64,000 bases of DNA from a virus, in IMG/VR virus record IMGVR_UViG_3300024308_000302, positions 124,001 to 188,000 of that record; one strand, given 5' to 3'. The notes under the pieces were generated by a model. It was not told the DNA's origin. It saw only the letters and a program-made list of their open reading frames with translations, and did not search any database. Positions 44,812-59,600 of this stretch are shown here, one piece after another. Every line of letters starts with the position of its first letter. Positions within the stretch are counted from its first letter, which is position 1. Made by a program: the position numbers and the translations under genes.

Positions 44812-44895
44812 TGGTGCCCGGAGCCGGACTCGAACCGGCACGGCTTTCGCCGGAAGATTTTAAGTCTTCTGTGTCTACCATTTCACCATCCGGGC
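44812..44895 (-). tRNA. tRNA-Leu(UAA)
   Basis: An 84-nt class II cloverleaf: acceptor GCCCGGA/TCCGGGC, anticodon arm GAAGA-CTTAAAA-TCTTC, long variable arm CGGCGAAAGCCG, encoded CCA. First of six Leu(UAA) genes. Confidence 0.95.
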
Positions 44896-44963
44896 ATAAA
44901 CAAAGATAACTCTTTGTTAACGGATATATTTTAAAAGATTTAAGTTAAATAATCAAGTTTTAA

Positions 44964-45278
44964 TTAATTATTTTTTGTCATTCTCGCTTTTAAAGTCTCT
45001 GCACCGAAAATAAAAGAATCAAACATCATTTTGAATTCTTCAATAAGTGTGTCTTCTGGAACTGAAAGAATACGTTCGTAAATTACTCGAAAAGCATGAT
45101 ACTGACCACAGCCAAGCTTTTGGTGCAGCAAAAAAGATTCTTTAAAACATGCAATTTTAAAATCACCCGGAGCAAGCTCAACCAAGCGACCAGACATATC
45201 AGAAAATTTTTCTTCAATGTCATCTGCAACAGAATTGACAAAAACAAGATCAGAAACAGAAAGTGGTGACATATTCAT
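44964..45278 (-). CDS. Hypothetical protein
   Basis: A 104-residue protein starting MNMSPLSVSDLVFVNS. It may be a remote relative of the 49186-49512 product (similar order of F....D, CF.E and EEF..M...F). Located between two tRNA-Leu genes. No family recognised. Confidence 0.7.
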   Translation of the reverse strand: MNMSPLSVSDLVFVNSVADDIEEKFSDMSGRLVELAPGDFKIACFKESFLLHQKLGCGQYHAFRVIYERILSVPEDTLIEEFKMMFDSFIFGAETLKARMTKNN

Positions 45279-45308
45279 TTTTTAGACCTTTTCTAATATT
45301 AAGAAATT

Positions 45309-45393
45309 TGGTGCCCGGTGCCAGACTCGAACTGGCACGGATTTCGCCGGAAGATTTTAAGTCTTCTGTGTCTACCAATTTCACCAACAGGGC
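45309..45393 (-). tRNA. tRNA-Leu(UAA)
   Basis: 85 nt, same anticodon arm as 44812-44895; acceptor GCCCTGT/ACCGGGC has one mismatch. CCA encoded. Seven nt before tRNA-Arg. Confidence 0.92.
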
Positions 45394-45399
45394 ATAATT

Positions 45400-45476
45400 T
45401 GGCCCATGCGGCAGGACTCGAACCTGCGACCATCCGCTTAGAAGGCGGATGCTCTATCCAACTGAGCTACGCACGG
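45400..45476 (-). tRNA. tRNA-Arg(UCU)
   Basis: 77 nt, acceptor CCGTGCG/CGCATGG, discriminator G, loop CTTCTAA (anticodon TCT), encoded CCA. Confidence 0.95.
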
Positions 45477-45485
45477 ATGTTTGTC

Positions 45486-45614
45486 TTAGGCGTCCTGATG
45501 ACGATTGCGGCGTTTGTCACGGAATTTACGGTCATTTTTCGCAAAATTGCGGGTTTCTTTGTCACGACCCTTGGAAGTGAATTTTTCGGTCATATCGCGG
45601 TGAGAACCTTGCAT
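45486..45614 (-). CDS. Small basic MQGS protein, copy 1
   Basis: A 42-residue protein MQGSHRDMTEKFTSKG followed by KFRDKRRNRHQDA. ATG at 45614 has AAGGAA 8 nt upstream and a TTTACA-17-TATAAT promoter. Paralogue of 47022-47156 (MQGSYGDATERF ... RRNKRRNRHKDAD). Both lie beside a tRNA-Leu gene. Very high Arg/Lys content suggests RNA or ribosome binding. The open frame extends upstream to the amber stop of 45771-46022. Confidence 0.75.
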   Translation of the reverse strand: MQGSHRDMTEKFTSKGRDKETRNFAKNDRKFRDKRRNRHQDA

Positions 45615-45650
45615 TTCGTATTTCCTTGTATGTTTCGTTTTGATGGCTCC

Positions 45651-45679
45651 ATTATAGAGAAATTGGTACTGCATGTAAA
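45651..45679 (-). promoter_or_regulatory. Strong sigma70-like promoter
   Basis: TTTACA, 17 bp, TATAAT on the minus strand, driving the MQGS gene, tRNA-Arg and tRNA-Leu. Confidence 0.8.
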
Positions 45680-45770
45680 GCATTATTTTCGTTTTTTCTA
45701 AATTGTTTTTGATTGATTTTAAACAATAAATTAAAATAAACCAGAGGGCAGATTTAATAGAACCTGAAAA

Positions 45771-46022
45771 CTACAGGTTCATAGCTGACAACTTATGCCG
45801 AGCGAATTCTAAGACTTCTGCAAGTTCAAAACCATCCAAATCACCAAGATGAGCCACAACATGTGGATTGCGAGATGCCCACAGATCACCTTCTTTTTTA
45901 ATCACTGTAGTGCCTTCTGTAGCTCCCCAACCAGCAATCACCGTGCCACGGCAAGCAAAGCCTGTATGACAAACACTGGAACTGCCATCAGCAAAAATGA
46001 TTTCTTTGGGTTCATCAGACAT
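45771..46022 (-). CDS. Small hypothetical protein, ends in TAG
   Basis: An 83-residue protein starting MSDEPKEIIFADGSSS; GGGTG lies 6 nt before the ATG, so the 28-codon extension is rejected. The amber stop sits in a weak hairpin AACCTG/CAGGTT. The same frame stays open for 29 codons and runs into the frame of the MQGS protein. No family recognised. Confidence 0.7.
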   Translation of the reverse strand: MSDEPKEIIFADGSSSVCHTGFACRGTVIAGWGATEGTTVIKKEGDLWASRNPHVVAHLGDLDGFELAEVLEFARHKLSAMNL

Positions 46023-46247
46023 AATAACACCCCAAACATTTTTACTGCAGAGAGCTAGAGCATATTTTTTAATTGTCAGACTTGTGATGTTTTTTACTTG
46101 AGTCATGTGAAAATACCTATATATCGTTGATTTAATAAAGTAATTTTGGTAAAAATTAGAATTTGAAGCAAGAAGTTTGAATTATACCATATTGAATAAT
46201 CGTAAGCAAAAAAAATCTGGCTAAAACCAGATCTTTAAATTATTGAT

Positions 46248-46610
46248 TTAGGTTACTGCAATTTGATTTGTATATTTTCGTTGATTTTTATAAATGTCAT
46301 TCGCCTTTTCTTCACTGATTTGAACAAGATTGATAAGGGGAGCGTTTTCAAAGACATTATAAAACCAATCAGAAACAGCCTGAGTATAAGTATATCCGGG
46401 GACACAAGAAACTCTTTTAAATTTCAGAATAGGACGGCCACGACCATCAACAACTACGCTCTTAGAAATATACAAAGGAGAGTCTTTTCCTGCATCAGCA
46501 TCAACAAAGAAAGTTGAACCAATGTAAGGATTATTGTTATAACAGATGAACACATAACAAAAACAACCCAAAAGGAATAGAGCACACACAATAAAAATCA
46601 ATGTTGGCAT
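46248..46610 (-). CDS. Membrane-anchored hypothetical protein
   Basis: A 120-residue protein with one N-terminal helix (LIFIVCALFLLGCFCYVFI) and a soluble domain with Gly-Arg-Gly turn (VVVDGRGRPILKF). It may be a signal-anchored periplasmic protein. The spacer 46611-46905 holds only a terminator at about 46785-46803 and no gene. Confidence 0.7.
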   Translation of the reverse strand: MPTLIFIVCALFLLGCFCYVFICYNNNPYIGSTFFVDADAGKDSPLYISKSVVVDGRGRPILKFKRVSCVPGYTYTQAVSDWFYNVFENAPLINLVQISEEKANDIYKNQRKYTNQIAVT

Positions 46611-46784
46611 AATTTAATCCTCTTATTGTTCAATTTTTTAAATGTTATAAAGCTAAACTGATATTCAAGAGTATGGTAAAATTTACAAAAGTTGAATGAA
46701 CAGTTGCGAGAGGTTTATTTTATCAAAAAATGACACAAAATACAACAATAAGTGATGAATTCACACAAAAATTAAATAACAAAA

Positions 46785-46803
46785 AACCCCTTCTAAGAGG
46801 GGC
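46785..46803 (-). terminator. Intrinsic terminator
   Basis: CCCCTCT, TAG, AGAGGGG-type stem with T run on the minus strand, downstream of the tRNA-Leu at 46906. Confidence 0.7.
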
Positions 46804-46905
46804 TGTTCAATCTCTATTAATTAGTTTTCTATAAGTAACTTACTGAATGGATAGCTTACATTTTGAACGTTCATTAATTATCAGTAGTTTTATTGTAGTT
46901 GAATT

Positions 46906-46989
46906 TGGTGCCCGAAGCCAGACTCGAACTGGCACGGCTCTCGCCGGAAGATTTTAAGTCTTCTGTGTCTACCATTCCACCATTCGGGC
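46906..46989 (-). tRNA. tRNA-Leu(UAA)
   Basis: 84 nt, acceptor GCCCGAA/TTCGGGC, anticodon arm GAAGA-CTTAAAA-TCTTC, encoded CCA. Confidence 0.95.
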
Positions 46990-47021
46990 TTAAAAATGGT
47001 CTACCGTAGTAGACCTGTTAA

Positions 47022-47156
47022 TCAGTCTGCGTCTTTATGACGGTTTCGGCGTTTATTGCGTCGGTTACGATCTTCTCGATGAGCACGAGCTTTTTCTGGA
47101 TCTTTTTGTTTACGGCCACTGAAACGTTCTGTTGCATCACCATAAGAACCTTGCAT
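47022..47156 (-). CDS. Small basic MQGS protein, copy 2
   Basis: A 44-residue protein beginning MQGSYGDATERFSGRKQ and ending NRRNKRRNRHKDAD at TGA. GAGGA lies 9 nt before the ATG. Paralogue of 45486-45614; co-transcribed with the tRNA-Leu 33 nt downstream. Promoter TTGCAC-17-TAATAT upstream. Confidence 0.75.
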   Translation of the reverse strand: MQGSYGDATERFSGRKQKDPEKARAHREDRNRRNKRRNRHKDAD

Positions 47157-47247
47157 TTTTTACATCCTCTTTTTTGGGTAATCTTTGTAACTTTGTAGCT
47201 TTATATTATCAACGTTTTTTTAAATGTGCAAGCTTTTTTTTGCAATT

Positions 47248-47466
47248 TTAAGTCAATTTTTGTGCAGCATCGTAGGCAAGTGCAAATGTACGGAAAGCGT
47301 CAATCTCAACAGCTTCACCACCATGAGTTGGAATCTCAAAAAGATGGAAAAGACCACCATCACGGATTTCAATATACCACCCATCATCAATATATGGGGC
47401 ATTTTGAACAATCATATGGCCAGTTGACGGATCAAAAAAAGAAAAAAGCGGAATATTAGTAGACAT
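47248..47466 (-). CDS. Small hypothetical protein
   Basis: A 72-residue protein starting MSTNIPLFSFFDPSTGHM with aromatic-rich strands (DDGWYIEIRDGGLFHLFEI). No family recognised. Confidence 0.7.
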   Translation of the reverse strand: MSTNIPLFSFFDPSTGHMIVQNAPYIDDGWYIEIRDGGLFHLFEIPTHGGEAVEIDAFRTFALAYDAAQKLT

Positions 47467-47554
47467 AAATCACCTCATAATTTAAACCTATAATAGCATA
47501 AAACACTATAAATTCAAGAAAAAAATTTTGGTGAGGTCTTTATTGTGTTTGAAA

Positions 47555-48550
47555 TTAAATAGAATACATACTGAGCAACATTAAAGTGTCTTCTGACAGT
47601 GGCAATGCAGGTGAAATATCAATCTCTTTTAACATTCTAATCGTTTGCATTGATGGGTATCTTGATAAACAATAATTATATCTGGACATGTAAACTTTTT
47701 TAAATTTATTTACATAGTCAATATAATCATTATTGAGGTACTGTTTATATTGAATAGATAATGTACCAGACTCATATGTTATAATCATGAATCTATCATA
47801 AGATTTAACAGAAGAGTCTGACTTATCACTATCAGATGGATGATGTTCAACAATAAGCTCATACTTTCGTCCATTTTTATACAACAAACATGGATTGTAG
47901 TCATTTTTAAGAATTCTAACTTTTTTTGTATCAATGTATTTTTCAAAACTAATAGCTATATCACGCACAGCTTCCATTGATGTAAAATCACTGAATCGGC
48001 CAACTTCAAAAATCAACTTATCAGCAATATAAAAGTGAGCTTTATTTAAGATGGAACCTGTTTTTGAAAGTAGACAAAAAGAGATACGCTCAACACCAGT
48101 AACAACTGTTTTTTGTAATATTTTAATTTCTGGATAATAATTTTCATCTAAAGTAAGTAAGTTAGGGACTTTAGATAAACTTTGAGAATCGTTGCCTGTC
48201 AATAAGTCCATTAAATCTGGATGATTGTTAAACACGCCTACATAACGATTTTTTAAATAAGGAAAAACAGAAGAATCCATTGTTAAAAGTATGTTTTTAT
48301 TAATACATTCCATAATGAAATCTTGATGATTTAAAGATGATTCATACTTCATACAATAATCCATAGAAACTTGACTAACAAAATCTTTTATACTTAAAAA
48401 TAAGAAGCCATCTAAAAATGTAGCGTTAGCTAATAGATTATTATTTAATTTCAATGAATAGGAATTATTAGTAAATTCTTTAATAGAAGATACAACTGAA
48501 TCTACGTCCTCTTTTTTCTTGAAATAATCCTTTAACTTATTTAAAAACAT
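47555..48550 (-). CDS. Family B paralogue (hydrophobic C-terminal tail)
   Basis: A 331-residue protein ending PLSEDTLMLLSMYSI, nearly the same tail plan as the 57692 product. It also shares MQTIRMLKEIDIS ahead of the tail with SFSVLEKLDNLGLS there. No known family. Confidence 0.75.
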   Translation of the reverse strand: MFLNKLKDYFKKKEDVDSVVSSIKEFTNNSYSLKLNNNLLANATFLDGFLFLSIKDFVSQVSMDYCMKYESSLNHQDFIMECINKNILLTMDSSVFPYLKNRYVGVFNNHPDLMDLLTGNDSQSLSKVPNLLTLDENYYPEIKILQKTVVTGVERISFCLLSKTGSILNKAHFYIADKLIFEVGRFSDFTSMEAVRDIAISFEKYIDTKKVRILKNDYNPCLLYKNGRKYELIVEHHPSDSDKSDSSVKSYDRFMIITYESGTLSIQYKQYLNNDYIDYVNKFKKVYMSRYNYCLSRYPSMQTIRMLKEIDISPALPLSEDTLMLLSMYSI

Positions 48551-48661
48551 AATAATATTAAATGTGCATGATTATAGTATGCAACATAATAATACTTTTT
48601 CAAATAAAAAAGCCAACATTGAATGCTGGCTTATTAATGGAATTATTTAATTAGAAAAGTG

Positions 48662-48913
48662 TTAAATTCTTGATATAAGTAGACAAATTATGAAAGTAAT
48701 AATATAAGCAGAAAGCCAAATAACTTTAAAAGGTCTGGTTTTAATTTTGGTTGCAAAAGGTGTAACACGTTCAACCATTTGAACAACAATTGGATATGAG
48801 GCCAATAACTCTTGTTCACATTTAATAAGAATGTGATTATTTGGACTATGATAACGTTCAAGCAATATAGTAGGTATCAGACAACAACTTACAAACAAAA
48901 AAATAAATAGCAT
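48662..48913 (-). CDS. Small membrane protein, in frame after an amber stop
   Basis: An 83-residue protein with TM segments at residues 1-19 and 67-83. The ATG lies 4 codons, in frame, after the amber stop of 48923-49159, so suppression would fuse the secreted protein to this membrane anchor. AGG precedes the ATG, so separate initiation is also possible. Confidence 0.7.
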   Translation of the reverse strand: MLFIFLFVSCCLIPTILLERYHSPNNHILIKCEQELLASYPIVVQMVERVTPFATKIKTRPFKVIWLSAYIITFIICLLISRI

Positions 48914-48922
48914 TACACATAC

Positions 48923-49159
48923 CTAATAAATAATAGTAACAAGATGTGAAACACCATTTTTAAGAATAACATCTCTTTTTTCAACTTTTGTTTGAACATT
49001 TTTACCATTATTCCCACAATCAACAGAAACTACAGTATTGAGTGCAGATGCAATGCAAGCATCAGGTAGAATAACCAAGCGAACTTCAATATAGCCAGTC
49101 ATTGTGCCAGCATGCACACTGAATGGAATCAACAACAAAGGCAATATCTTTTTCCACAT
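48923..49159 (-). CDS. Small secreted protein, ends in TAG
   Basis: A 78-residue protein. Residues 1-17 form a Sec signal (ending SVHA). The mature part GTMTGYIEVRLVILPDACIA and VSVDCGNNG has two cysteines likely in a disulfide, a plan reminiscent of small pilus/spore-coat U-like domains, though far too short for a confident match. It ends at an amber stop with the next gene in frame. Confidence 0.7.
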   Translation of the reverse strand: MWKKILPLLLIPFSVHAGTMTGYIEVRLVILPDACIASALNTVVSVDCGNNGKNVQTKVEKRDVILKNGVSHLVTIIY

Positions 49160-49185
49160 GATTATTTTACCTGTACTGGATGATT

Positions 49186-49512
49186 TTAATTAGGTTTAAT
49201 CAATGAAAGAGAGAATTTGAAAGCTTCATACATGCTTACATATTCTTCACGCACTTTAGTTTCATTGAATGAGCAAACCATAGAGCGGAAATAACGATAA
49301 GCTGGATAAGCTTTAATTCCATCTTGTTTGAGTTCTGCTTTGATAGCTTCTGCAAAGCAAGCAGAAATGAAAATGCCATGACTAACAGAACCTCGACCAG
49401 TAATATCAAAACATTTAAAATCAATATCATCAAAGCTAGCTCGCAATGATTCAATTTGTGCATCACTCAGATCATGAGTAGTTTGCTTAGTGTTATCAAT
49501 AGCATTGTGCAT
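49186..49512 (-). CDS. Hypothetical protein
   Basis: A 108-residue protein. GGAG lies 6 nt before the ATG at 49512 (MHNAIDN), favouring it over the two ATGs just upstream, the first of which overlaps the stop of 49524-50165. No family recognised; possible remote relative of 44964-45278. Confidence 0.65.
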   Translation of the reverse strand: MHNAIDNTKQTTHDLSDAQIESLRASFDDIDFKCFDITGRGSVSHGIFISACFAEAIKAELKQDGIKAYPAYRYFRSMVCSFNETKVREEYVSMYEAFKFSLSLIKPN

Positions 49513-49523
49513 ATGCATCTCCA

Positions 49524-50165
49524 TTAGATAAGAATCATTTTTAAGGCTTCAATTTTATCATTTAACATATGTTTTTGCAATGCAACTTTGAAATCTTTTT
49601 CCTGAAATATTTCAAAAAAGGCATCTGGTCTTTTATAAGCTATGTAGCTGAGTCTTATTGTTTCAAGAATTTCATTATAATCAAGAGTATCGTTCACAAT
49701 TTCTACGATACTATTATTTTCAATGTAAAAATCCTTAAAGTATGACAAATAGTTAGACTTTGTATAATATTCAAACCTATTTTCAAGGTGGTATAAATCA
49801 ACTCCAGCAGAGTAAATATGATTTTCATTAAGAATAAAACAACTCCAAGATTCTCTATCAACAGTAAATTGAGATGAAATTTTCATGTTATAATTAGTAT
49901 TAAATGGCAATTTAAGTAAGTAACTAGAAGGTAAGCGAATTTCAAACCCCAGAAATCCACTTTTACCATAAGCCACGTTCAATGTGGCAATTACTGATTG
50001 TTTAAAAGAAAATTCAAATTGTTCATAATCAGCACAATAAACATGAACTACACCGTTATTAATAAGTTGAAACTTATCATTAATAATTTTGAAAAGCTTA
50101 ACAATGGTTTCCTTCTCAACTTTTGGATACCATTGATCTTGATTAACTAATAAGAAATCAATCAT
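49524..50165 (-). CDS. Family B paralogue (hydrophobic C-terminal tail)
   Basis: A 213-residue protein ending NDKIEALKMILI. In an operon between the NADAR-like gene (upstream, 1 nt gap) and 49186. No known family. Confidence 0.75.
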   Translation of the reverse strand: MIDFLLVNQDQWYPKVEKETIVKLFKIINDKFQLINNGVVHVYCADYEQFEFSFKQSVIATLNVAYGKSGFLGFEIRLPSSYLLKLPFNTNYNMKISSQFTVDRESWSCFILNENHIYSAGVDLYHLENRFEYYTKSNYLSYFKDFYIENNSIVEIVNDTLDYNEILETIRLSYIAYKRPDAFFEIFQEKDFKVALQKHMLNDKIEALKMILI

Positions 50166-50166
50166 G

Positions 50167-50682
50167 TTAGATTTCCAGATTTAAATGCATACGCATAAGG
50201 TGTCTAACTCTTGAGATCTCTTCAATAATCCAATCATATTGAGGAACAGTAATGATTTTTGCATTTTGCTGATCTTTACCAAAATAATAATAATGAACAA
50301 GAGGCAATGTTGAATAGGTCAATTCTTTAAGGATATCTTTATTTTGACGAAGTTTACAACGAATGGCTTCACAAACGTCTTCTTTGAAATAATAAGAAAA
50401 AATACCAGAACTGTCATCGTCTTTTACAGGAAGAAGTTTACGACCTAATTCTTTTGCAGCAAGTCCATAGGTCAATTTGATTTCTTCTGAATCAATGCCA
50501 TGTTCCAAAAGAAGACGGAAATACCAAAAGGCTTCTACTGATGCAAATTTACCATATTTGGGATGAACAAAATAACTACGATTAAAGTTAGTTAGCTTTT
50601 TGCCAAGAGCAGTTTTACCACGACTAAACACATTGATGTGATCGACGCCATCATTCAAGGGCGAAAGGATTATGTTTGTCAT
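50167..50682 (-). CDS. NADAR-like protein
   Basis: A 171-residue protein resembling the NADAR (YbiA) superfamily: LGKKLTNFNRSYFVHPKYGKF, then SVEAFWYFRLLLEHG (family pattern LSNF...y....SvEh.yq..K), and later CEAIRCKLRQNKD and ATIT-like helix. NADAR enzymes hydrolyse ADP-ribose N-glycosidic bonds and reverse guanine ADP-ribosylation by DarT-type toxins. Here Glu in SVEA keeps the usual acidic residue. The function in this diverged form is inferred. Confidence 0.65.
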   Translation of the reverse strand: MTNIILSPLNDGVDHINVFSRGKTALGKKLTNFNRSYFVHPKYGKFASVEAFWYFRLLLEHGIDSEEIKLTYGLAAKELGRKLLPVKDDDSSGIFSYYFKEDVCEAIRCKLRQNKDILKELTYSTLPLVHYYYFGKDQQNAKIITVPQYDWIIEEISRVRHLMRMHLNLEI

Positions 50683-50738
50683 AATTAGCTCCTTGTCAAA
50701 TCAGAATTATAACATAATATCAATCGAAAATAAAGAAA

Positions 50739-50757
50739 AACCCGCTTAGAGCGGGTT
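50739..50757 (-). terminator. Intrinsic terminator
   Basis: AACCCGC, TCTAA, GCGGGTT and a T run on the minus strand after the Nudix gene. Confidence 0.85.
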
Positions 50758-51318
50758 ATCATTCACTTCAACTACACAAGGTTTAATGATGCCTGAATCA
50801 AGCAAAATATCAAGTTCAGTTTTACCAGTGCCTGCCCAAGCAGCAGTTCGAAGATTTTTCGGAGCATCAGGGGTCATGTGAACCACAACAAGACCAGAGC
50901 TTTCAACGCGACCATGATAGCTGGAACATGCTTTCATACGGAGTTCATACAGTTCATCTACCGAAACTTTACAAGCGTAAAGGTGAGTATTTTGAGTAAG
51001 GCGTTTTCCAGTCATATGATGAGAACAAATTAGGGTAAGGTCTTCTGCATTTGGTGTATGCCCAATTTCTTCACCAGACTCACGAAGTGCAGCAGTAATG
51101 AGGTCTTCACCTTCATCTACCTGACCACCCACAAAGCCCATACTACCATCCCAACGAACCATAACACCAAGCAGAGAAACTTTAGCAAACCATGCACCTT
51201 CACCCCATTTGCGGCAGTCTGGGTTAGTTTGATACAGGTGGGTTGGGTCAGCATAAAATGCAATGAACACAGAGTTTTTGTCAGCCATAGTGCCATTAGG
51301 AACGCGGGATACTTGCAT
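50746..51318 (-). CDS. Nudix hydrolase
   Basis: A 190-residue protein with a complete Nudix box (residues 64-86): GGQVDEGEDLITAALRESGEEIG, here given in two parts, GGQVDEGED and ALRESGEEIG. The fold surrounds it with MVRWDGSMGFVG and a C-terminal helix. Nudix enzymes cleave nucleoside diphosphate derivatives such as ADP-ribose, NADH or dinucleoside polyphosphates; the substrate cannot be told. Its position next to a NADAR-like gene suggests ADP-ribose metabolism. Confidence 0.9.
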   Translation of the reverse strand: MQVSRVPNGTMADKNSVFIAFYADPTHLYQTNPDCRKWGEGAWFAKVSLLGVMVRWDGSMGFVGGQVDEGEDLITAALRESGEEIGHTPNAEDLTLICSHHMTGKRLTQNTHLYACKVSVDELYELRMKACSSYHGRVESSGLVVVHMTPDAPKNLRTAAWAGTGKTELDILLDSGIIKPCVVEVNDNPL

Positions 51319-51372
51319 GGTAAATCCTCAATGATTAATGTAGATCTATTATAATATATCCTGAATAATCAA

Positions 51373-52164
51373 TCAACACCTATTTGGGGATTTTGATTCA
51401 TGCAGGCCATATTTGACAACAAAATCACAAAAGTCAGCATAAGTGATTGAGCCACCTTTTGAGAATAGCTGATTCAAATCTTCTGAAAACGAACGATGGA
51501 GAACAGTCAGATCAACTGGATAGATTTTATTGATGTTTATATTTTGCATATAGCGAGTAGTTTTTTCTAAATTATGCTCAAATTCAAGCTCAATACTTTC
51601 TGCAATCTTAATAATATCATTTTTTCCAATGTGGTGAATACCACTAAACATAGCACCAGATTCAAAGATCCAATGACGTTCAATCAACTTATCTCGATAT
51701 TTCTTACAAGACAACTCAATAACATCTTTCATATCAGACAAGGCATCAAAAATATTTTTTATATCACCATCTTTTACAGCACTATTAAAACCATCAACTT
51801 CATAAGAATCATTAGTATTAAAATCAATGCAATCCATAACGTCAGATTCATGGTCGCATCCATAGACAAGATTATGTAGGAGAGCCACTGTAAATTGATG
51901 ATGCAGTTGAGATTTTAATTCCATTTCAGCTAGCCTCATCTTATAGGTGTTAGATGTTTCTACCAAAACATCATAATTGATAGTCTCAACAAATTTTGGC
52001 ATAAAAGTTTTTACAAAATTATCAAAATCTGGGCCAATAAGATATAAAGGATCATGTGTATTATAGCTATCTACCCAAAAATAAGTAGCACGAGCAGCGA
52101 CTACACCAGACATAAGGTATAGCTGAGGATTGGTCAAAGAACAAATATCAGTAACTCTTGTCAT
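51373..52164 (-). CDS. Hypothetical helical protein
   Basis: A 263-residue, mainly helical protein with several Asp/His-rich loops (YGCDHESDVMDCIDF, GIHHIGKND). The HH and HD pairs might bind metal; no known motif. It is a single gene. Confidence 0.7.
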   Translation of the reverse strand: MTRVTDICSLTNPQLYLMSGVVAARATYFWVDSYNTHDPLYLIGPDFDNFVKTFMPKFVETINYDVLVETSNTYKMRLAEMELKSQLHHQFTVALLHNLVYGCDHESDVMDCIDFNTNDSYEVDGFNSAVKDGDIKNIFDALSDMKDVIELSCKKYRDKLIERHWIFESGAMFSGIHHIGKNDIIKIAESIELEFEHNLEKTTRYMQNININKIYPVDLTVLHRSFSEDLNQLFSKGGSITYADFCDFVVKYGLHESKSPNRC

Positions 52165-52292
52165 AGATAACCTTTATTAAATTAAAATGGTTGAATTTTC
52201 AATATTCAACCAATTTGGTTGTTAAAAAAAACAATAAAATTTTACTTTTGTCAAGTTTAAAATAGAATTTTTATTCAAATAATTCAATTATT

Positions 52293-52502
52293 TTAAAGAT
52301 CTGTGAATCCACCATAGCCATTTTGCGGATAATGGTCATTTTCAAGCTTGCTCAACGCTGCCTTACGTTTTTGTTCGATAAATGCGGTCGATGAAAAAAT
52401 GGACTTGTTTTTTAATTCATTATCGTATGTTTGATTGATTTGCTGTTTTTCACTACGATAATGATCTTGTGCAGAATAACCAGAATCAGAATTGCTCATC
52501 AT
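52293..52502 (-). CDS. Small hypothetical protein
   Basis: A 69-residue hydrophilic protein starting MMSNSDSGYSAQDHYRS with a helical SALSKLEN-type segment. AAGGAG lies upstream. No family recognised. Confidence 0.7.
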   Translation of the reverse strand: MMSNSDSGYSAQDHYRSEKQQINQTYDNELKNKSIFSSTAFIEQKRKAALSKLENDHYPQNGYGGFTDL

Positions 52503-52600
52503 ATAATAAATACTCCTTAAACAATAAAAATAATATCAAATAAATAAAAAAAAGGCAATAAAAAAGCCATCATTAGATGGCCTTTTAAACAACCTACATA

Positions 52601-52915
52601 TTAACTTTCGAAAAGCTCACCAATTTTGAGAGCCATCATCATATCTCCTTCGATACGGAGCTTACCACTCATGAAAGCCTGCATACCGTCAAGTTCACCA
52701 GTAGACATAGCATACAGGGTGTCTGAATCAGCTACAAAGGTAGTAGTCGATTCCTTTGGAGCAGTTTCAACAACAGTACAGGCAGAATTTTTAATTTGCA
52801 AGTAGAAGTCTTTGTCATCAGGAACATTGAAATGATAAATCAGATCAAGACCAGAAGCCGCTTCTGCGTTGAATTTAGCAATGAAATTGGTTTGTGCTTG
52901 TGCTGTTTTAGACAT
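52601..52915 (-). CDS. SCP2 sterol-binding-domain protein
   Basis: A 104-residue single SCP2 domain: YHFNVPDDKDFYLQIKN, TTFVADSDTLYAMSTGELDG, then the diagnostic AFMSGKLRIEGDMMMALKIGELF (given here in part: FMSGKLRIEGDMMMAL). Such domains bind hydrophobic ligands (lipids, acyl-CoA) in a small tunnel. Full domain length, no signal peptide. Co-oriented with tRNA-Leu downstream on the plus side (52937). Confidence 0.9.
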   Translation of the reverse strand: MSKTAQAQTNFIAKFNAEAASGLDLIYHFNVPDDKDFYLQIKNSACTVVETAPKESTTTFVADSDTLYAMSTGELDGMQAFMSGKLRIEGDMMMALKIGELFES

Positions 52916-52936
52916 ATTGTTTCTCCACGATTAATT

Positions 52937-53023
52937 TGGTGCCCAAAGCCAGACTCGAACTGGCACTCCGATTAAGGAAAGGGATTTTAAGTCCCCCGCG
53001 TCTACCGATTTCACCATTTGGGC
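52937..53023 (-). tRNA. tRNA-Leu(UAA), second sequence class
   Basis: 87 nt, acceptor GCCCAAA/TTTGGGC, anticodon loop CTTAAAA in a GGGGA/TCCC stem, variable arm CCTTTCCTTAATCGGAG. Same class as 57332-57417. CCA encoded. Confidence 0.95.
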
Positions 53024-53065
53024 GTGCGACTATTCTAATAAAGAATATTAAAACAGTCAATACTT

Positions 53066-53305
53066 TTATGATTTTTCTTGAGATTTTTTGAGTTGATGTT
53101 CTGCATCAAGCTCACGAATAGCAATATCCATTCTCATTCGATCAAGAACAGTGCTCTTTGCAATATCATTAGCATCAGCAATTTGATAAGGATTCAAAAA
53201 AGTTTCAAGATAAGCTAATGCTGTATTCCGGTCAGCCTCATTCATGAAACTCAACATCAATTGGCCACGGTTGAGGTCCAATTCAGTCTTGTCAATTTCA
53301 AGCAT
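53066..53305 (-). CDS. Small acidic hypothetical protein
   Basis: A 79-residue protein starting MLEIDKTELDLNRGQL, helical, ending LKKSQEKS. No family recognised. Confidence 0.7.
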   Translation of the reverse strand: MLEIDKTELDLNRGQLMLSFMNEADRNTALAYLETFLNPYQIADANDIAKSTVLDRMRMDIAIRELDAEHQLKKSQEKS

Positions 53306-53439
53306 AATAACCTCTACACCTTATCCGTTGATTGGATGTGTAGTATAACAATATTCTGAAACATGGTCAATCATTAATGATGCGGATTATAGCAAAATTT
53401 TCTCAAAGTTAGCAAGTTAATTCTGTGATTTTGGAGCAG

Positions 53440-54051
53440 TCATTTGTATCGATAGGAAGTCACACGCTGACCTTGGACAAAATGATAAATATCAGTAACA
53501 ACAGAATCTACATATTCAACATAATGTATGCCAAGTGTATTAATGCTTTTGTTATTATATTGTCTGGTATGGATTTGTTTTATCTTGTCATCAATATAAA
53601 TATAAGATGCATACCAATAACCTTTATTTTTATCAACTTTTAAAGATTCCATAATTCGACCATTAACACAAATAACTTCTGATATTGAATAAACCCCATA
53701 ATTTAAATCTAAATCTACTTCAAAAATAGAATCATTCTCTTTAAAATAATAAATAGTATTTGTTTGAACTTGCTGCTTATCAGTAATTGTAATTTGAGCA
53801 ATGAAATCATCAATCATACGATGTTCATACAATGAAGTATATGTAAGAGGCTTAACTCTCAGATATTTAGAATGTTTCACATCCACTAACTCAAGCCCTA
53901 ATGGCTCAAGAGAATAGGTTAAATCTTTAGACCAGAATATTCTGTTGAAAGTAGTTGGTGCTTCATTAATAACTTTTTTAATAAATTCTGGATCTTTTAT
54001 TTTTAAAGAGAAATCATCTATTTTATGTTTAATATCATTCACTGTTAGCAT
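53440..54051 (-). CDS. Hypothetical protein, possible family B core
   Basis: A 203-residue beta-rich protein. VDLDLNYGVYSISE resembles the strand found in family B (FDLDFNYIDVEF), but the C-terminal tail is absent. It is divergent from the secreted gene at 54205, sharing an intergenic inverted repeat. No known family. Confidence 0.65.
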   Translation of the reverse strand: MLTVNDIKHKIDDFSLKIKDPEFIKKVINEAPTTFNRIFWSKDLTYSLEPLGLELVDVKHSKYLRVKPLTYTSLYEHRMIDDFIAQITITDKQQVQTNTIYYFKENDSIFEVDLDLNYGVYSISEVICVNGRIMESLKVDKNKGYWYASYIYIDDKIKQIHTRQYNNKSINTLGIHYVEYVDSVVTDIYHFVQGQRVTSYRYK

Positions 54052-54064
54052 AATTATAATGTAA

Positions 54065-54123
54065 TCATTTTGATATTAGTTTAAGTGAAAAGAATGAAAA
54101 AATCAAATATCAAAACAATACAT
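54065..54123. promoter_or_regulatory. Inverted repeat between divergent genes
   Basis: TTTTGATATT and AATATCAAAA arms, about 35 bp apart, lie in the AT-rich gap between 53440-54051 and 54205-54972; the outer bases TGTAAT/ATTACA extend the symmetry. Probable operator. Confidence 0.45.
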
Positions 54124-54204
54124 TACAAAAAATATCATATAACAAATTGTATTATTTTAAAATAGATATATAATGATAAATATATATAATAATTTGGGTG
54201 CGAC

Positions 54205-54972
54205 ATGAATAAATCAAAATTAAGTTTCCCAGCAATAGTTGTTTGTATGTTAAGTTACAATGCTTCAAATGCAGCATATGTAGCAAAAGTTCCATTAGAG
54301 ATTCCACAAGGTGGATCGCTACCATATAATAGTATAATAATTGGTTCAGGTAATAAAGAATTAGATTTCGATCCACCTGATCCATTACCCACAGATGATG
54401 GTGTTGTATGCGAATACAATCTAACCAATTCTCCTAATATATCTGTTTATACAGATGGAATAATGAAGAGTCCTGATAATGAATGGATATCCTATAAGGA
54501 GATTTATTATCAAGGACAAAAAGTAATCAATGCTTTTAAAGGCAAAGAAATATTTAGACAAAATGATGAAATGTATAATATAGGTTACTATGAAGTATGT
54601 ATACAAGGTTCTCCATTATATAGTAATCAAAATAATGAAGTAGAAAATCAAGAATGGGATCAAGATGATTGTAGATATAATAACGAAACGGGAACTCAAT
54701 ATTCTTGGACTACCACCACTACAAGTGATGGTAGATATGCATTCCTGAATGCAAGTCTAGGAAGCTTTGGATATGTTACAGCAAATAGTAGTAATATAAT
54801 ATTCCCAGTAGGTACTATAACTGTACCAGAGGGAAAAATATTACCAGAAGGAAAGCAAAGAATAATAATAGGGAACACTGCATTTGATAGAGGTAACTAT
54901 TATGGATCTGTAAATATAGGTAATAATGTTTTCCAAAGCAAATATGAAGTATGTAAAAAAACAGGAAAATAA
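54205..54972 (+). CDS. Secreted family C protein with duplicated motif
   Basis: A 255-residue protein. Sec signal residues 1-23 (ending ASNA), then AYVAKVPLEIPQGGSLPYNS and IIIGSG. A second, shorter copy of the motif appears near residue 210 (ITVPEGKILPEGKQRIIIGN), so the protein looks like two related modules. Cysteines in VVCEYN, YEVCIQG, DDCRYN and YEVCKKT. A GGTG site is present. Function unknown. Confidence 0.8.
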   Translation: MNKSKLSFPAIVVCMLSYNASNAAYVAKVPLEIPQGGSLPYNSIIIGSGNKELDFDPPDPLPTDDGVVCEYNLTNSPNISVYTDGIMKSPDNEWISYKEIYYQGQKVINAFKGKEIFRQNDEMYNIGYYEVCIQGSPLYSNQNNEVENQEWDQDDCRYNNETGTQYSWTTTTTSDGRYAFLNASLGSFGYVTANSSNIIFPVGTITVPEGKILPEGKQRIIIGNTAFDRGNYYGSVNIGNNVFQSKYEVCKKTGK

Positions 54973-54974
54973 AA

Positions 54975-54996
54975 AAAGCCATCAAAAGATGGCTTT
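54975..54996. terminator. Terminator between convergent genes
   Basis: AAAGCCATC, AAAA, GATGGCTTT between 54205-54972 and 55005-55343. Confidence 0.8.
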
Positions 54997-55004
54997 CTTA
55001 TTAA

Positions 55005-55343
55005 TCATGTTTCGTTATCTTTTAAAATTTGACATAGCCAGCTTGATGCATCATTAAGATGAGATTCACCAGCGTCAATTTCATCCAGAAGCTTTCGGAA
55101 AGTATCAATATCGTTACAGCGTTCTTTTCGTGTATTTGTAAGCAGTTCAATAGCATCCGCTTTACCAGTTAGATCATCTGGTGATGAACTAAGCGTTGTC
55201 AGAACTCGATCAATACTAATTAAGTCATCACGAACTTTTTTGTAAAGCTTATCAATTGTTTGTCGAATTTCATATAATTTGAAATTAGATTTACCAACAA
55301 GATCATTTGATTCTTTAATAGCTTTTAGTACAAGTTTTTGCAT
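55005..55343 (-). CDS. Hypothetical helical protein
   Basis: A 112-residue protein (MQKLVLKAIKESNDLVGKSN); ATG at 55343 with GGAG 9 nt upstream. Almost entirely charged helices. Follows 55359-55574 in an operon. No family recognised. Confidence 0.7.
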   Translation of the reverse strand: MQKLVLKAIKESNDLVGKSNFKLYEIRQTIDKLYKKVRDDLISIDRVLTTLSSSPDDLTGKADAIELLTNTRKERCNDIDTFRKLLDEIDAGESHLNDASSWLCQILKDNET

Positions 55344-55358
55344 GAATGATAACTCCAA

Positions 55359-55574
55359 TTAAATAATAGTCTCAAATCTATCAGAAATGTGATAACCATT
55401 AAGTTTAAGCCAATGTTTAATTTTCCCAGAGTCGTGCTCATGAAAAGTTTGTAATTGCTTGGTTCTCTCAGCATCCCAAAGAATAAAAAGACCTGAGCCG
55501 TATGAAGCAAGATATTCCAGACAAGCTGGTGTTGTGATTGGTTTTGAAAAAATAGATAGGAATTTTTTAAACAT
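55359..55574 (-). CDS. Small hypothetical protein
   Basis: A 71-residue protein starting MFKKFLSIFSKPITTP. The open frame extends to 55745 but crosses the tRNA-Leu(CAA), so that part is rejected. GGAG lies upstream. No family recognised. Confidence 0.65.
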   Translation of the reverse strand: MFKKFLSIFSKPITTPACLEYLASYGSGLFILWDAERTKQLQTFHEHDSGKIKHWLKLNGYHISDRFETII

Positions 55575-55609
55575 ATTTATTGAAACTCCTTTAGGTATTA
55601 TTTGAAAAT

Positions 55610-55693
55610 TGGTGCCCAAGGTCGGACTCGAACCGACACGTCTTTCGACAGAGGATTTTGAATCCACCGCGTCTACCATTCCACCACTCGGGC
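55610..55693 (-). tRNA. tRNA-Leu(CAA)
   Basis: 84 nt, acceptor GCCCGAG/CTTGGGC, anticodon loop TTCAAAA (CAA), long variable arm, encoded CCA. Confidence 0.94.
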
Positions 55694-55839
55694 TAAAAAT
55701 TCTACCCGCTGCGTAAGCTAAAAGCGTCCTCACACTGAAACACAAGTGTTAATGGCGATTTTGCTATTAACTTGCAACACACTAGTCAATTCGGTGTCCA
55801 ATGAGATTGGATTCAGCAAATTGAACGGCGTAGAAAAAC

Positions 55840-55914
55840 TGGTGCTAAGGACGGGATTCGAACCCGTGACCATCGGATTTAGAGGCCGTTGCTCTGCCGC
55901 TGAGCTACCAAAGC
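55840..55914 (-). tRNA. Amber-suppressor tRNA(CUA), copy 1
   Basis: 75 nt. Canonical D-arm and T-arm (ACGGG/CCCGT), loop CTCTAAA with U33, anticodon CTA and A37, which reads UAG. The anticodon stem has a C31-U39 mismatch, and two U-U pairs interrupt the acceptor GCTTTGG/CCTTAGC. Sister of 56849-56923. Confidence 0.85.
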
Positions 55915-55980
55915 ATGTTATTACTATCACTTGTTTTGTTGAGCCATTATACAACAAGACCCAACAAGAAACAAGTATTT

Positions 55981-56328
55981 TTATCGTTTAATTGCGACTT
56001 CCGTATCCCAATCCACTTCAACTCGCTGATTTTCATCGAAATCATAAAGACCTTCATGTCCAGATATTGATTCAATGTAAAGAGTTCGTTCACCACCTCG
56101 CCAACGAGCACTCCAGCTATCAGTATCAAAAATATCAATCAGAATATCTTTTAATGTAGGATACTTTTGTTTAAAAGACTTCCAACTCTTGTCAATCAGG
56201 ATTTCATCAACATGACCACCATTATTACCGAGTTCGGTGGCCCTCATGATACATTGATATTTTTTTGTGCCACGAATTCTGGTTTCTTCAAAGGTTATAT
56301 CTAAACCAATTTCTTCATTCAGAGCCAT
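55981..56328 (-). CDS. Family D paralogue
   Basis: A 115-residue protein: EETRIRGTKKYQC, SWKSFKQKYPTLKDILIDIF, TDSWSARW, SGHEGLYDF, VEVDW. Closest to 44085-44435. Lies between the first suppressor tRNA and tRNA-Met/Ile, so it is co-transcribed with the array. Confidence 0.75.
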   Translation of the reverse strand: MALNEEIGLDITFEETRIRGTKKYQCIMRATELGNNGGHVDEILIDKSWKSFKQKYPTLKDILIDIFDTDSWSARWRGGERTLYIESISGHEGLYDFDENQRVEVDWDTEVAIKR

Positions 56329-56351
56329 AGCAAAATCTCCATGTATAAATT

Positions 56352-56428
56352 TGGTGGGACTTGTAGGACTTGAACCTACGACCTGCCGATTATGAGTCGG
56401 ACGCTCTAACCAACTGAGCTAAAGTCCC
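56352..56428 (-). tRNA. tRNA(CAU), Ile2 or elongator Met
   Basis: 77 nt, acceptor GGGACTT/AAGTCCC, loop CTCATAA. The anticodon stem (CCGA/TCGG) and GGTTCAAGTCC T-arm resemble E. coli tRNA-Ile2, whose C34 is converted to lysidine, more than elongator Met. CCA encoded. Confidence 0.9.
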
Positions 56429-56434
56429 GTAATT

Positions 56435-56845
56435 TTACATCAAACTATCAGCATAAAGCTTTTTGTGTTGATCTACAACACAACCAAAAGAATCTTCATA
56501 CAGATAAACAGATGATTTAATGGTTTCAATTGGTCTTGCCAACTCTGAATACATCAAAGTGTCAACACGATATCCACCACGCCCATTTTTACCTTTCCAA
56601 AGCTCCCAAACAAGTACAGCAAGCGTACCAATTTTGAAAACTTTTTCAGGTTTAAAGCTGCTCACATAATCTACACAACCAAAACCAGCAGCTATATGAA
56701 CTTTAATACCTTTTGGATTAACCTTTACTACAGTGCCAGAACATAACGAATAATCAATTAAGACTTTAACATCATCACCAATAGACAATGTTTTAGTTTC
56801 AATAATTTGTTTGATATGTTCTTCATATAGCATAATGTTATCCAT
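56435..56845 (-). CDS. Hypothetical protein with SH3/KOW-like N-terminus
   Basis: A 136-residue protein; residues 20-50 (LSIGDDVKVLIDYSLCSGTV and VKVNPKGIKVHI) look like a small beta-barrel of SH3/KOW type. It lies within the tRNA array, 3 nt from the suppressor tRNA upstream and 6 nt from the next tRNA. No family recognised. Confidence 0.7.
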   Translation of the reverse strand: MDNIMLYEEHIKQIIETKTLSIGDDVKVLIDYSLCSGTVVKVNPKGIKVHIAAGFGCVDYVSSFKPEKVFKIGTLAVLVWELWKGKNGRGGYRVDTLMYSELARPIETIKSSVYLYEDSFGCVVDQHKKLYADSLM

Positions 56846-56848
56846 AAT

Positions 56849-56923
56849 TGGTGTTAAGGGTGGGATTCGAACCCACGACCATCGGCTTTAGAGGCCGCTG
56901 CTCTACCGCTGAGCTACCAAAAC
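56849..56923 (-). tRNA. Amber-suppressor tRNA(CUA), copy 2
   Basis: 75 nt, acceptor GTTTTGG/CCTTAAC with two U-U pairs as in copy 1, anticodon stem GCGGC/GCCGA, loop CTCTAAA (anticodon CTA), T-stem GTGGG/CCCAC, encoded CCA. Reads UAG. Confidence 0.88.
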
Positions 56924-56968
56924 ATTTATTCTATAAATAAGATACAATTAAAGCATATTTATATAAAC

Positions 56969-57053
56969 TGGTGCCCGGTGCCAGACTCGAACTGGCACGA
57001 CTTTCGCCGGAAGATTTTAAGTCTTCTGTGTCTACCGATTTCACCAACCGGGC
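56969..57053 (-). tRNA. tRNA-Leu(UAA)
   Basis: 85 nt, acceptor GCCCGGT/ACCGGGC, anticodon arm GAAGA-CTTAAAA-TCTTC, encoded CCA. Confidence 0.95.
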
Positions 57054-57331
57054 GTAAAAAATGAATTAAAAATTTGCGTGTGTCGAACTTAACTTTACAA
57101 CACAATCTGATTTACCCAGAGCCTTAGCTAGCCCTGTCTTCACAAGAAGAAAACACACCTAACTCTACAAGAAGTCAGATTTGGTAACTGAATACCTGTG
57201 AAACCATATTGTTGTAAAATAATATCCTTTTTTTCAACCCCTTCGTTTGGGCTGTCAACGTAACATCCGCTGAATAACACCTATATACCTGCAACTGGAT
57301 ATAGTTACAACTTTTTAACTCATTGCAAAAC
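57054..57331 (-). other. Structured spacer inside the tRNA array
   Basis: No supported gene. An AATCTGA/TCAGATT pairing of 7 bp spans about 57105-57180, and a CCCCT/AGGGG-like hairpin lies near 57237. It is transcribed with the array on the minus strand; a processed small RNA is possible. Confidence 0.35.
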
Positions 57332-57417
57332 TGGTGCCCGAAGCCGGACTCGAACCGGCACTCCGATTAAGGAAAGGGATTTTAAGTCCCCCGCGTCTAC
57401 CATTTCACCACTCGGGC
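57332..57417 (-). tRNA. tRNA-Leu(UAA), second sequence class
   Basis: 86 nt, acceptor GCCCGAG/TTCGGGC, anticodon loop CTTAAAA in a GGGGA/TCCC stem, variable arm like 52937-53023, encoded CCA. Confidence 0.95.
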
Positions 57418-57691: not shown

Positions 57692-58852
57692 TCAAACAAC
57701 AAACATGTCCACGACCATTAAATCATCTTGATTCAAAGGTGTATCTGTTGAAAGTCCCAAATTATCTAATTTTTCTAGGACAGAAAAAGATGGATGAAAT
57801 GACTTGAAATAGTCAAGTTTATTCACAATGACATTATTAATTGACATTTCATGCTCTTTAACCATATCCAAAGTAAATTTTGAAGACGATTTTTTTAATT
57901 TTCCGTAAAAATAAGTATAAGTAACTAATCTATCATTCTTATATCTAATCAAAGGTGTTTCTTTATTCAAAAGACTTTGCCGGAAATTTGAATAGCTGGG
58001 GCTTTCATCAAGAGCACTGGTGTATTCATTAAATTTTGTAATATAGCTTACAGAAAAAACACGATTTGTTTTTCTAAATAAGCAATATTGATTATCTAAC
58101 GTTTTTAAAACCCGAATATTCTCAAGATTTAAATGCTTCAAATAAAACTCTTTTTTACCTTTTAATTGATCGTTAATACCTTCACGAGTATCCACATCAG
58201 CTAAAAATGAAAAAGGACTTGAAACTATCGTTGATGTAAAGAATGATTCAAAATCACTCAGATGAAAAATATTATTATCAACATAATAATAAACAACAGG
58301 ATCAGTTTTTACTTGATCATTATCATATATAGAATAAAAACTATATTTGAAAATATTTTTTAAAATTTTTTTTCTTTTGAAATAAATAATCTGATATTTT
58401 TTATGTTCCCGATAAATATGTGAATGATATTTATCAAAATCATATCTTTTATGAAATTTAGTTGTTTTTTTCACCAATTGATACATATGTTTAAGATGAT
58501 TATCAAAAGGAGTTTGATGAAAAGACTTAAAAAAACCATTATGGAAATTAACAAAGTCAATTAAATTTCTTTTTGGGATTTTAAATAGAATATTATTTTT
58601 AATGGTATCAACAACAAAATCATCTAAAGATAGTTGACTATCATCCATAGGAGTTGCATAGTTTATTTTTAGAAGTTTTCCTAGCTCATCATGTTGGATT
58701 GTGACATACATAATACGATCATCAAAATCAATAAATGCTTTCAAACCATTATTTGCATTGACATCGTAACGACAGTCACCCAGTTGAGTCACAAAAAAAT
58801 CTGGCTCACTGTATAAACAAATATTTAAAAAGTTAATAAGTTTATGGAGCAT
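57692..58852 (-). CDS. Family B paralogue (hydrophobic C-terminal tail)
   Basis: A 386-residue protein, the largest of the family, ending PLNQDDLMVVDMFVV. ATG at 58852 preferred to a TTG four codons earlier. Basic and aromatic-rich middle (FKRKKILKNIFKYSFYS). No known family. Confidence 0.75.
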   Translation of the reverse strand: MLHKLINFLNICLYSEPDFFVTQLGDCRYDVNANNGLKAFIDFDDRIMYVTIQHDELGKLLKINYATPMDDSQLSLDDFVVDTIKNNILFKIPKRNLIDFVNFHNGFFKSFHQTPFDNHLKHMYQLVKKTTKFHKRYDFDKYHSHIYREHKKYQIIYFKRKKILKNIFKYSFYSIYDNDQVKTDPVVYYYVDNNIFHLSDFESFFTSTIVSSPFSFLADVDTREGINDQLKGKKEFYLKHLNLENIRVLKTLDNQYCLFRKTNRVFSVSYITKFNEYTSALDESPSYSNFRQSLLNKETPLIRYKNDRLVTYTYFYGKLKKSSSKFTLDMVKEHEMSINNVIVNKLDYFKSFHPSFSVLEKLDNLGLSTDTPLNQDDLMVVDMFVV

Positions 58853-58919
58853 AATAGATCCCAAAAATTAAATTTATAGAACCTTCATGATATCATAATT
58901 TTTGTAGGCTTACTAGATA

Positions 58920-59198
58920 TTAATCGCCACGAAAAACAAAATTGCTTGGTGGTAAAGATTTAGAAGGGCCTTCTTTATCAGCCAATGGTTGAATGGTGTA
59001 TAAAACGGTATCCCAGCTTTGATACTGAGTGTTAAACATATAGAGTTTTTTTGTTCTCATGTTCTGTTTGTAATTTTGATTATTGTGGTTATCAATGAAA
59101 TAAACAAAACCATCATAGATATAAGTACATTGAAGCGTTGATTTCGCTTTGTTTTCAACGGTTAAAAGATAAAGAGAGCCTTCATTATATGTTGTCAT
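58920..59198 (-). CDS. Small hypothetical protein
   Basis: A 92-residue beta-rich protein starting MTTYNEGSLYLLTVENK, with YDGFVYFIDNHNNQNY. No family recognised. Confidence 0.7.
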   Translation of the reverse strand: MTTYNEGSLYLLTVENKAKSTLQCTYIYDGFVYFIDNHNNQNYKQNMRTKKLYMFNTQYQSWDTVLYTIQPLADKEGPSKSLPPSNFVFRGD

Positions 59199-59332
59199 TC
59201 CTTATACTCCATTAGAAAGGTTACAGGCAATTTGAAGATCAATCGCCTACATTTACATTATATAAAGATTCATATTTTTTACAAGGCCGTTTCAACAATA
59301 AATAAAATAAAAATTGTTTTTAGAAAAAGATA

Positions 59333-59432
59333 AACCTCTTCAAACTTACTTACACACATTAACATTAATAGAGCTGCTACCTTCCGGTCCTGACTCGGTT
59401 TTCAATGCAATGTTATAAGGGCCGAAGAGGTC
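59333..59432 (-). ncRNA. ffs: Signal recognition particle (4.5S) RNA
   Basis: About 100 nt, minus strand. The domain IV hairpin (59371-59396) carries the invariant SRP features: CAGG, ACC-GGAA-GGT tetraloop stem, then AGCAG; E. coli 4.5S has UCC-GGAA-GGA at this place, so the stem base pair has changed on both sides. Closing stem GACCTCTTC/GAAGAGGTT (9 bp) and inner ACATT/AATGT, CTTA/TAAG pairings complete the rod. A T-rich tail follows. It would bind Ffh and take part in membrane targeting. Confidence 0.9.
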
Positions 59433-59523
59433 TATCATTACAACAACAATAATAACAGAGATTCTAAAATATGCAAGCAAAAAAATAAAAAAAGCCACCA
59501 CAAGGTGACTTTATTTTTTAAGT

Positions 59524-59600
59524 TGGCCCAGCCAGCAGGAATCGAACCTGCAACCGTCCGCTTAGAAGGCGGATGCTCTATCCAATTGAGCTATGGCTGG
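59524..59600 (-). tRNA. tRNA-Arg(UCU), second copy
   Basis: 77 nt, acceptor CCAGCCA/TGGCTGG, discriminator G, loop CTTCTAA, encoded CCA. The conserved three-hairpin RNA lies 7 nt upstream. Confidence 0.95.

Follow-up and report, generated by a model that had tools for sequence, protein, structure and literature searches.

The analysis of the window (the whole 64-kb stretch of DNA, positions 124001-188000 of the linear IMG/VR virus record G000, 290,157 bp) supports the view that a virus-like contig rich in tRNA genes carries a complete gene for SRP RNA. We propose, with confidence evenly balanced between yes and no, that it is a functional full-length SRP (4.5S) RNA gene of the virus, which would be transcribed on its own and work with the host Ffh in sustaining membrane targeting.

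The minus strand of the window matches the Rfam family Bacteria_small_SRP (RF00169) at 59334-59429 over the entire model (1-97 of 97), with a score of 58.7 bits against a gathering cut-off of 40 (cmscan, Rfam 15; E 2.5e-10 for 64 kb). The original prediction had placed a complete 4.5S/SRP RNA at 59333-59432 and named an Infernal search with this model as its check; identity and coordinates held, and the strand, which it did not give, is minus. The parts of the RNA are given below.

59334..59429, minus strand: SRP RNA (Bacteria_small_SRP, RF00169), full model length; cmscan 58.7 vs 40 bits, fold z -4.4.
59329..59436, minus strand: extended rod hairpin that takes in the outer stem and is probably the full extent of the RNA; MFE -39.5 kcal/mol.
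59373..59394, minus strand: domain IV core GTCAGGACCGGAAGGTAGCAGC, with the CAGG/AGCA internal loop as the predicted Ffh M-domain site; pattern, 0 expected in shuffles.
59382..59385, minus strand: GGAA (GNRA) tetraloop; sequence and fold.
59355, minus strand: G83-equivalent G in GUGUG, predicted distal GTPase-activation site; invariant alignment column.

For the minus strand, folding predicts a rod at -33.7 kcal/mol, compared with -20.1 (sd 3.1) for shuffled sequences (z -4.4; none of the 200 shuffles was as good), and the plus strand folds much more weakly (z -2.0). The closing stem was first described as having 9 bp, which proved too short: a longer rod with an outer stem spans 59329-59436 and reaches -39.5 kcal/mol. 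There is a single occurrence of the core TCAGGNNNGNRANNNAGCAG in the 64-kb window, with an expectation of 0.00 in shuffles. Domain IV is composed of GAGU, CAGG, ACC, GGAA, GGU, AGCA and GCUC in this order, which gives the internal loop and the GNRA tetraloop of the predicted site for the Ffh M domain and FtsY. GUGUG is retained in the distal arm, and the column of its second G, at 59355, is invariant in all 13 aligned SRP RNAs. We take this residue to be the equivalent of G83 of E. coli 4.5S RNA, the GTPase-activating G of the distal site. In E. coli, the GTPase complex of SRP and its receptor shifts from the tetraloop to the distal site, and a base of the RNA at that site activates hydrolysis (PMC5454536). 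The window RNA thus has these sequence and structural attributes of Bacteria_small_SRP: a score above the cut-off, full length, the domain IV loops with the GNRA tetraloop, the distal G and a rod-shaped hairpin with conserved pairing.

The gene lies in a genuine tRNA region, as had been predicted, with 20-21 tRNAs in the window. Its immediate surroundings comprise the following elements.

59324..59328, minus strand: T-run immediately 3' of the closing stem, candidate self-termination of the SRP RNA; sequence and fold.
59449..59476, minus strand: candidate promoter TTGCAT-16-TATTAT with an extended -10 (TG), which would place the transcription start at about 59442; consensus match only.
59491..59512, minus strand: intrinsic terminator of the upstream tRNA-Arg, which sets tRNA-Arg apart from the SRP gene; terminator scan, 9 pairs.
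59524..59600, minus strand: tRNA-Arg(UCU), the next gene upstream; ARAGORN and Rfam, 71.6 bits.
58920..59198, minus strand: downstream ORF of 92 aa with its own promoter-like site at 59284-59257; ORF list, promoter scan.
57692..58864, minus strand: downstream protein of 390 aa, no family assigned; tblastn against the 437-kb relative.

The tRNA-Arg terminator, the weak promoter match (8/12 consensus positions, below the scan threshold of 9) and the outer stem running into a T-run together make the SRP gene look like an independent transcription unit. The 390-aa protein has no Pfam or PHROG match, and a pattern search revealed no viral homologue in IMG/VR; its full-length homologue in the 437-kb relative G001 is 28% identical (tblastn E 8.7e-35).

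The original prediction had concluded from a compensated pair in the tetraloop stem that the RNA is not a host contaminant. As stated this argument is invalid, since ACC-GGAA-GGU is ordinary in bacteria and is found in an Acinetobacter ffs. With an identity of 50-71% to the other full-length SRP RNAs of the comparison, the window RNA nevertheless keeps the structure, which argues against a recent host contamination or a decayed copy. Among 15 SRP RNAs from viral contigs, standard pairing holds in 105 of 105 cells across the seven pairs of domain IV, and at two outer helix-1 pairs both partners differ in 7 and 3 of the 15 sequences, respectively. Only these two outer pairs are informative, because the hits had been selected for pairing in helix 2 and two further pairs of helix 1 lay within the search pattern; the invariance of the domain IV core in the 15 RNAs likewise follows partly from the choice of that pattern. 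Infernal scoring also favours pairing, and the apparent covariation of domain IV should be read as support rather than proof. As regards the host, exact matches to a 30-nt core were found only in Acidimicrobiales; they carry little weight, as the rest of the RNA differs.

G000 is probably a fragment of a huge tailed phage. It encodes approximately 36 tRNAs and one RF00169 copy, which is complete and interior (183 kb of 290 kb), and its proteins include a T4-type RNA ligase, an endolysin, HNH nucleases, TnpB, peptidyl-tRNA hydrolase 2 (PTH2) and a Na+/H+ exchanger that shares 71% identity with a Pseudomonas phage exchanger. Six related contigs, among them G001, were recognized through the RNA ligase (64-71% identity); gene order is not kept between G000 and these relatives, and neither Rfam, a looser core pattern nor DNA similarity revealed an SRP RNA in them, although the contigs may be fragments.

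The contig could instead be a plasmid or a cellular fragment and the RNA an ordinary host ffs, a reading that we regard as unlikely. It draws on the large terminase subunit, for which PF03237 and phrog_2 gave no match in G000 or the relatives tested, including G001, whereas phrog_2 detected a terminase in five of five jumbo phages (XacN1, SCTP-2, G, PBECO4, Lak-A1). This is why the phage status of G000 is only probable, and of the originally predicted phage origin the virus-like, tRNA-rich character stood while phage identity is unproven for G000. The sheath profile (PF04984) was also negative in G000 and its relatives; for G000 it is uninformative, being negative in XacN1 and SCTP-2 as well. 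G001, a virus record of 437 kb, moreover contains cell-like genes (DnaK, GatA/GatB, tRNA synthetases including TyrRS, and a chemotaxis receptor). Against a cellular origin stand the roughly 36 tRNAs in 290 kb in which no rRNA, tmRNA or RNase P RNA reached the gathering thresholds and no Ffh was found, the ligase, endolysin and HNH families, the exchanger, a long protein shared by G001 and jumbo phage XacN1 at 45% identity, and the recurrence of SRP RNAs in terminase-bearing contigs, which is independent of G000. Ffh/FtsY (PF00448) was absent from G000 and from 16 related or SRP-bearing records.

Several other properties of G000 were recorded. The tRNAs (window 44812-57417 and L022) include tRNA-Leu(UAA) in many copies. 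Two with CUA anticodons, called Pyl (55840-55914 and 56849-56923), are possible amber suppressors, with no evidence of recoding. A recoded genetic code was considered as the cause of short ORFs and rejected, as readthrough of TAG or TGA brings little gain. Proteins with signal-peptide-like N-termini and a common motif resembling AAYxVKxPLE are encoded at window 54205-54972 and at L022:7429-8667, L026:4485-5351, L027:2646-3410 and L031:11547-12617; the one at 54205-54972 has a homologue in G001 and none in known phages.

IMG/VR was scanned for the core, and the hits were filtered by stem pairing and Rfam; the contigs described here are among the matches listed. These fall into two forms, full-length and domain-IV-only SRP RNAs. 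Besides G000, full-length RNAs are carried by G009 (497 kb) and G010 (372 kb), where the gene sits in a 9-tRNA array, by G055 (16 kb, behind 5 tRNAs) and by G025 (37 kb). G009 and G010 show 100% identity across a compared stretch of 2.9 kb and probably represent one phage species. Domain-IV-only RNAs (44-60 nt) keep the Ffh site and are devoid of the distal GTPase-activation arm; with half of the model missing from them, several fall short of the Rfam cut-off. They are located in or beside tRNAs in G011, G028, G034, G035, G049 (203 kb), G054, G056 and G057 (350 kb), and apart from close same-strand tRNAs in G023 and G024. At L231 (G028), L241 (G057), L166 (G011), L234 (G034) and L235 (G049), the hairpin directly follows a tRNA gene or is enclosed by two, at distances down to 4 nt.

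Terminase (phrog_2) was detected in G009 (E 1.5e-24), G010 (E 1.1e-24) and G028 (E 6.3e-47); the last, of 158 kb, encodes a sheath as well and has its domain-IV-only RNA between tRNAs. Among the matches listed only these contigs have terminase backing and the rest, which include at least about ten similar contigs besides G000, G009/G010 and G028, are viral by IMG/VR calls. The use of SRP RNA by phages in general is supported by the terminase-bearing G009, G010 and G028, and this wider claim rests on them rather than on G000. No Ffh or FtsY was found in the SRP-bearing contigs tested. None of 15 published jumbo or huge phage records, XacN1 included, matched an SRP RNA under the stricter filters used for these large records, which indicates that the RNA is dispensable for a large phage.

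Some matches outside this set were discarded. A 22-nt match in Vibrio phage VP58.5 is not an SRP RNA by Rfam, the record of Acinetobacter phage MD-2021a is a chromosome piece with recA, and Proteus phage Isfahan (L244, KY742649.2, unverified) carries a metazoan SRP RNA (209 bits) that is probably contamination. G059, with a terminase and a full rod, has an integrase nearby, is ambiguous and was left out of the support.

How might the virus use such an RNA? The SRP RNA gene sits with tRNA genes and could belong to a viral translation kit; the T4-type RNA ligase and PTH2 of G000 fit an RNA-repair/translation kit. Transcribed from the viral genome on its own, the RNA would pair with the Ffh of the host, none being encoded in the contig, and form an extra or replacement SRP. 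The presumed benefit is that co-translational membrane targeting of viral proteins would be kept running in infection, for example once the RNA of the host is broken down or its transcription is shut off. The original prediction had invoked many exported and membrane proteins, which a crude hydropathy count supports weakly: 57 of 395 G000 ORFs have signal-like N-termini and 82 of 395 TM-like segments, shares no higher than in a relative without SRP RNA (73/501 and 95/501).

Alternatively, in line with the titration of Ffh that the original prediction also considered, the viral RNA may act as an Ffh decoy or modulator that withdraws host Ffh and slows the insertion of host membrane proteins. 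The domain-IV-only RNAs of other contigs, which retain the Ffh site with no distal arm, look like binders without full activity, and for them such a role is a live option. The window copy is full length and has both the rod and the G83 equivalent, neither of which a sponge would need; the retained distal G favours a working SRP over a pure Ffh sponge and makes the decoy role less likely for this copy; we give it a low probability. Taking both forms together, viral SRP RNAs may constitute a recurrent class of phage genes, in which full-length RNAs would replace or boost the host 4.5S RNA, and domain-IV-only hairpins, cut from tRNA transcripts, would bind host Ffh with no distal GTPase-activating arm and so retune or block membrane targeting in the host; we judge this broader proposal somewhat less likely than not.

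Prophages are known to use host ffs for attachment. Pneumococcal PPH015 prophages integrate in ffs (PMC8637289), and many isolate prophage contigs that carry the pneumococcal ffs were rejected as viral SRP RNAs on this ground, the gene being the host att site. At L004/L015 (IMGVR_UViG_3300024309_000099), one end of the contig has a complete ffs close by and the other a second, degraded copy, which is suggestive of an element integrated in ffs. On these precedents the window gene might be passive cargo, a host ffs captured by chance (as an att site or with tRNA genes), not yet lost and functionless, but this is unlikely, given that G000 has no signs of att-site capture (neither a partial second copy nor an element-edge position), that its one RF00169 copy is complete and lies among tRNA and virus-family genes with the structure kept at 50-71% identity, and that RNAs of this kind are also found within the tRNA arrays of virus contigs unrelated to G000.

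The preferred reading of a working viral SRP RNA would have wider consequences. No description of a phage-encoded SRP RNA was found in the open-access full-text literature, a scope outside which most preprints and subscription papers fall, and the main huge-phage paper makes no mention of SRP (PMC7162821); provisionally, a phage-carried SRP RNA is new to the literature. The data suggest that the protein-targeting machine of the host is in part supplied or adjusted by some phages. If the RNA works, the delivery of proteins by host ribosomes is under phage manipulation and the supply of membrane proteins during infection becomes a testable question, and the domain-IV-only forms would be natural minimal SRP RNAs.

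Among known systems, the window RNA is most readily set beside the bacterial small SRP RNA, exemplified by E. coli 4.5S RNA (ffs), which it resembles in length, rod, domain IV loops, GNRA tetraloop and distal G; it differs from that family in its location on a virus-like genome beside tRNAs and without Ffh, and in its AT-rich helices. With phage tRNA arrays and the translation kits of XacN1 and other jumbo phages it shares the neighbourhood and the principle that the virus provides small, structured RNAs of host type; however, its product serves protein targeting and not decoding, and XacN1 and the 14 other records do without it. The domain-IV-only RNAs (G011, G028, G034, G049, G057) have the same Ffh-binding hairpin and the same tRNA setting, whereas the window RNA is full length. 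Prophages integrated in ffs, such as PPH015 (PMC8637289), likewise have an SRP RNA within the prophage record, but there it is the host att site at the prophage edge, whereas the RNA of G000 is an interior single copy.
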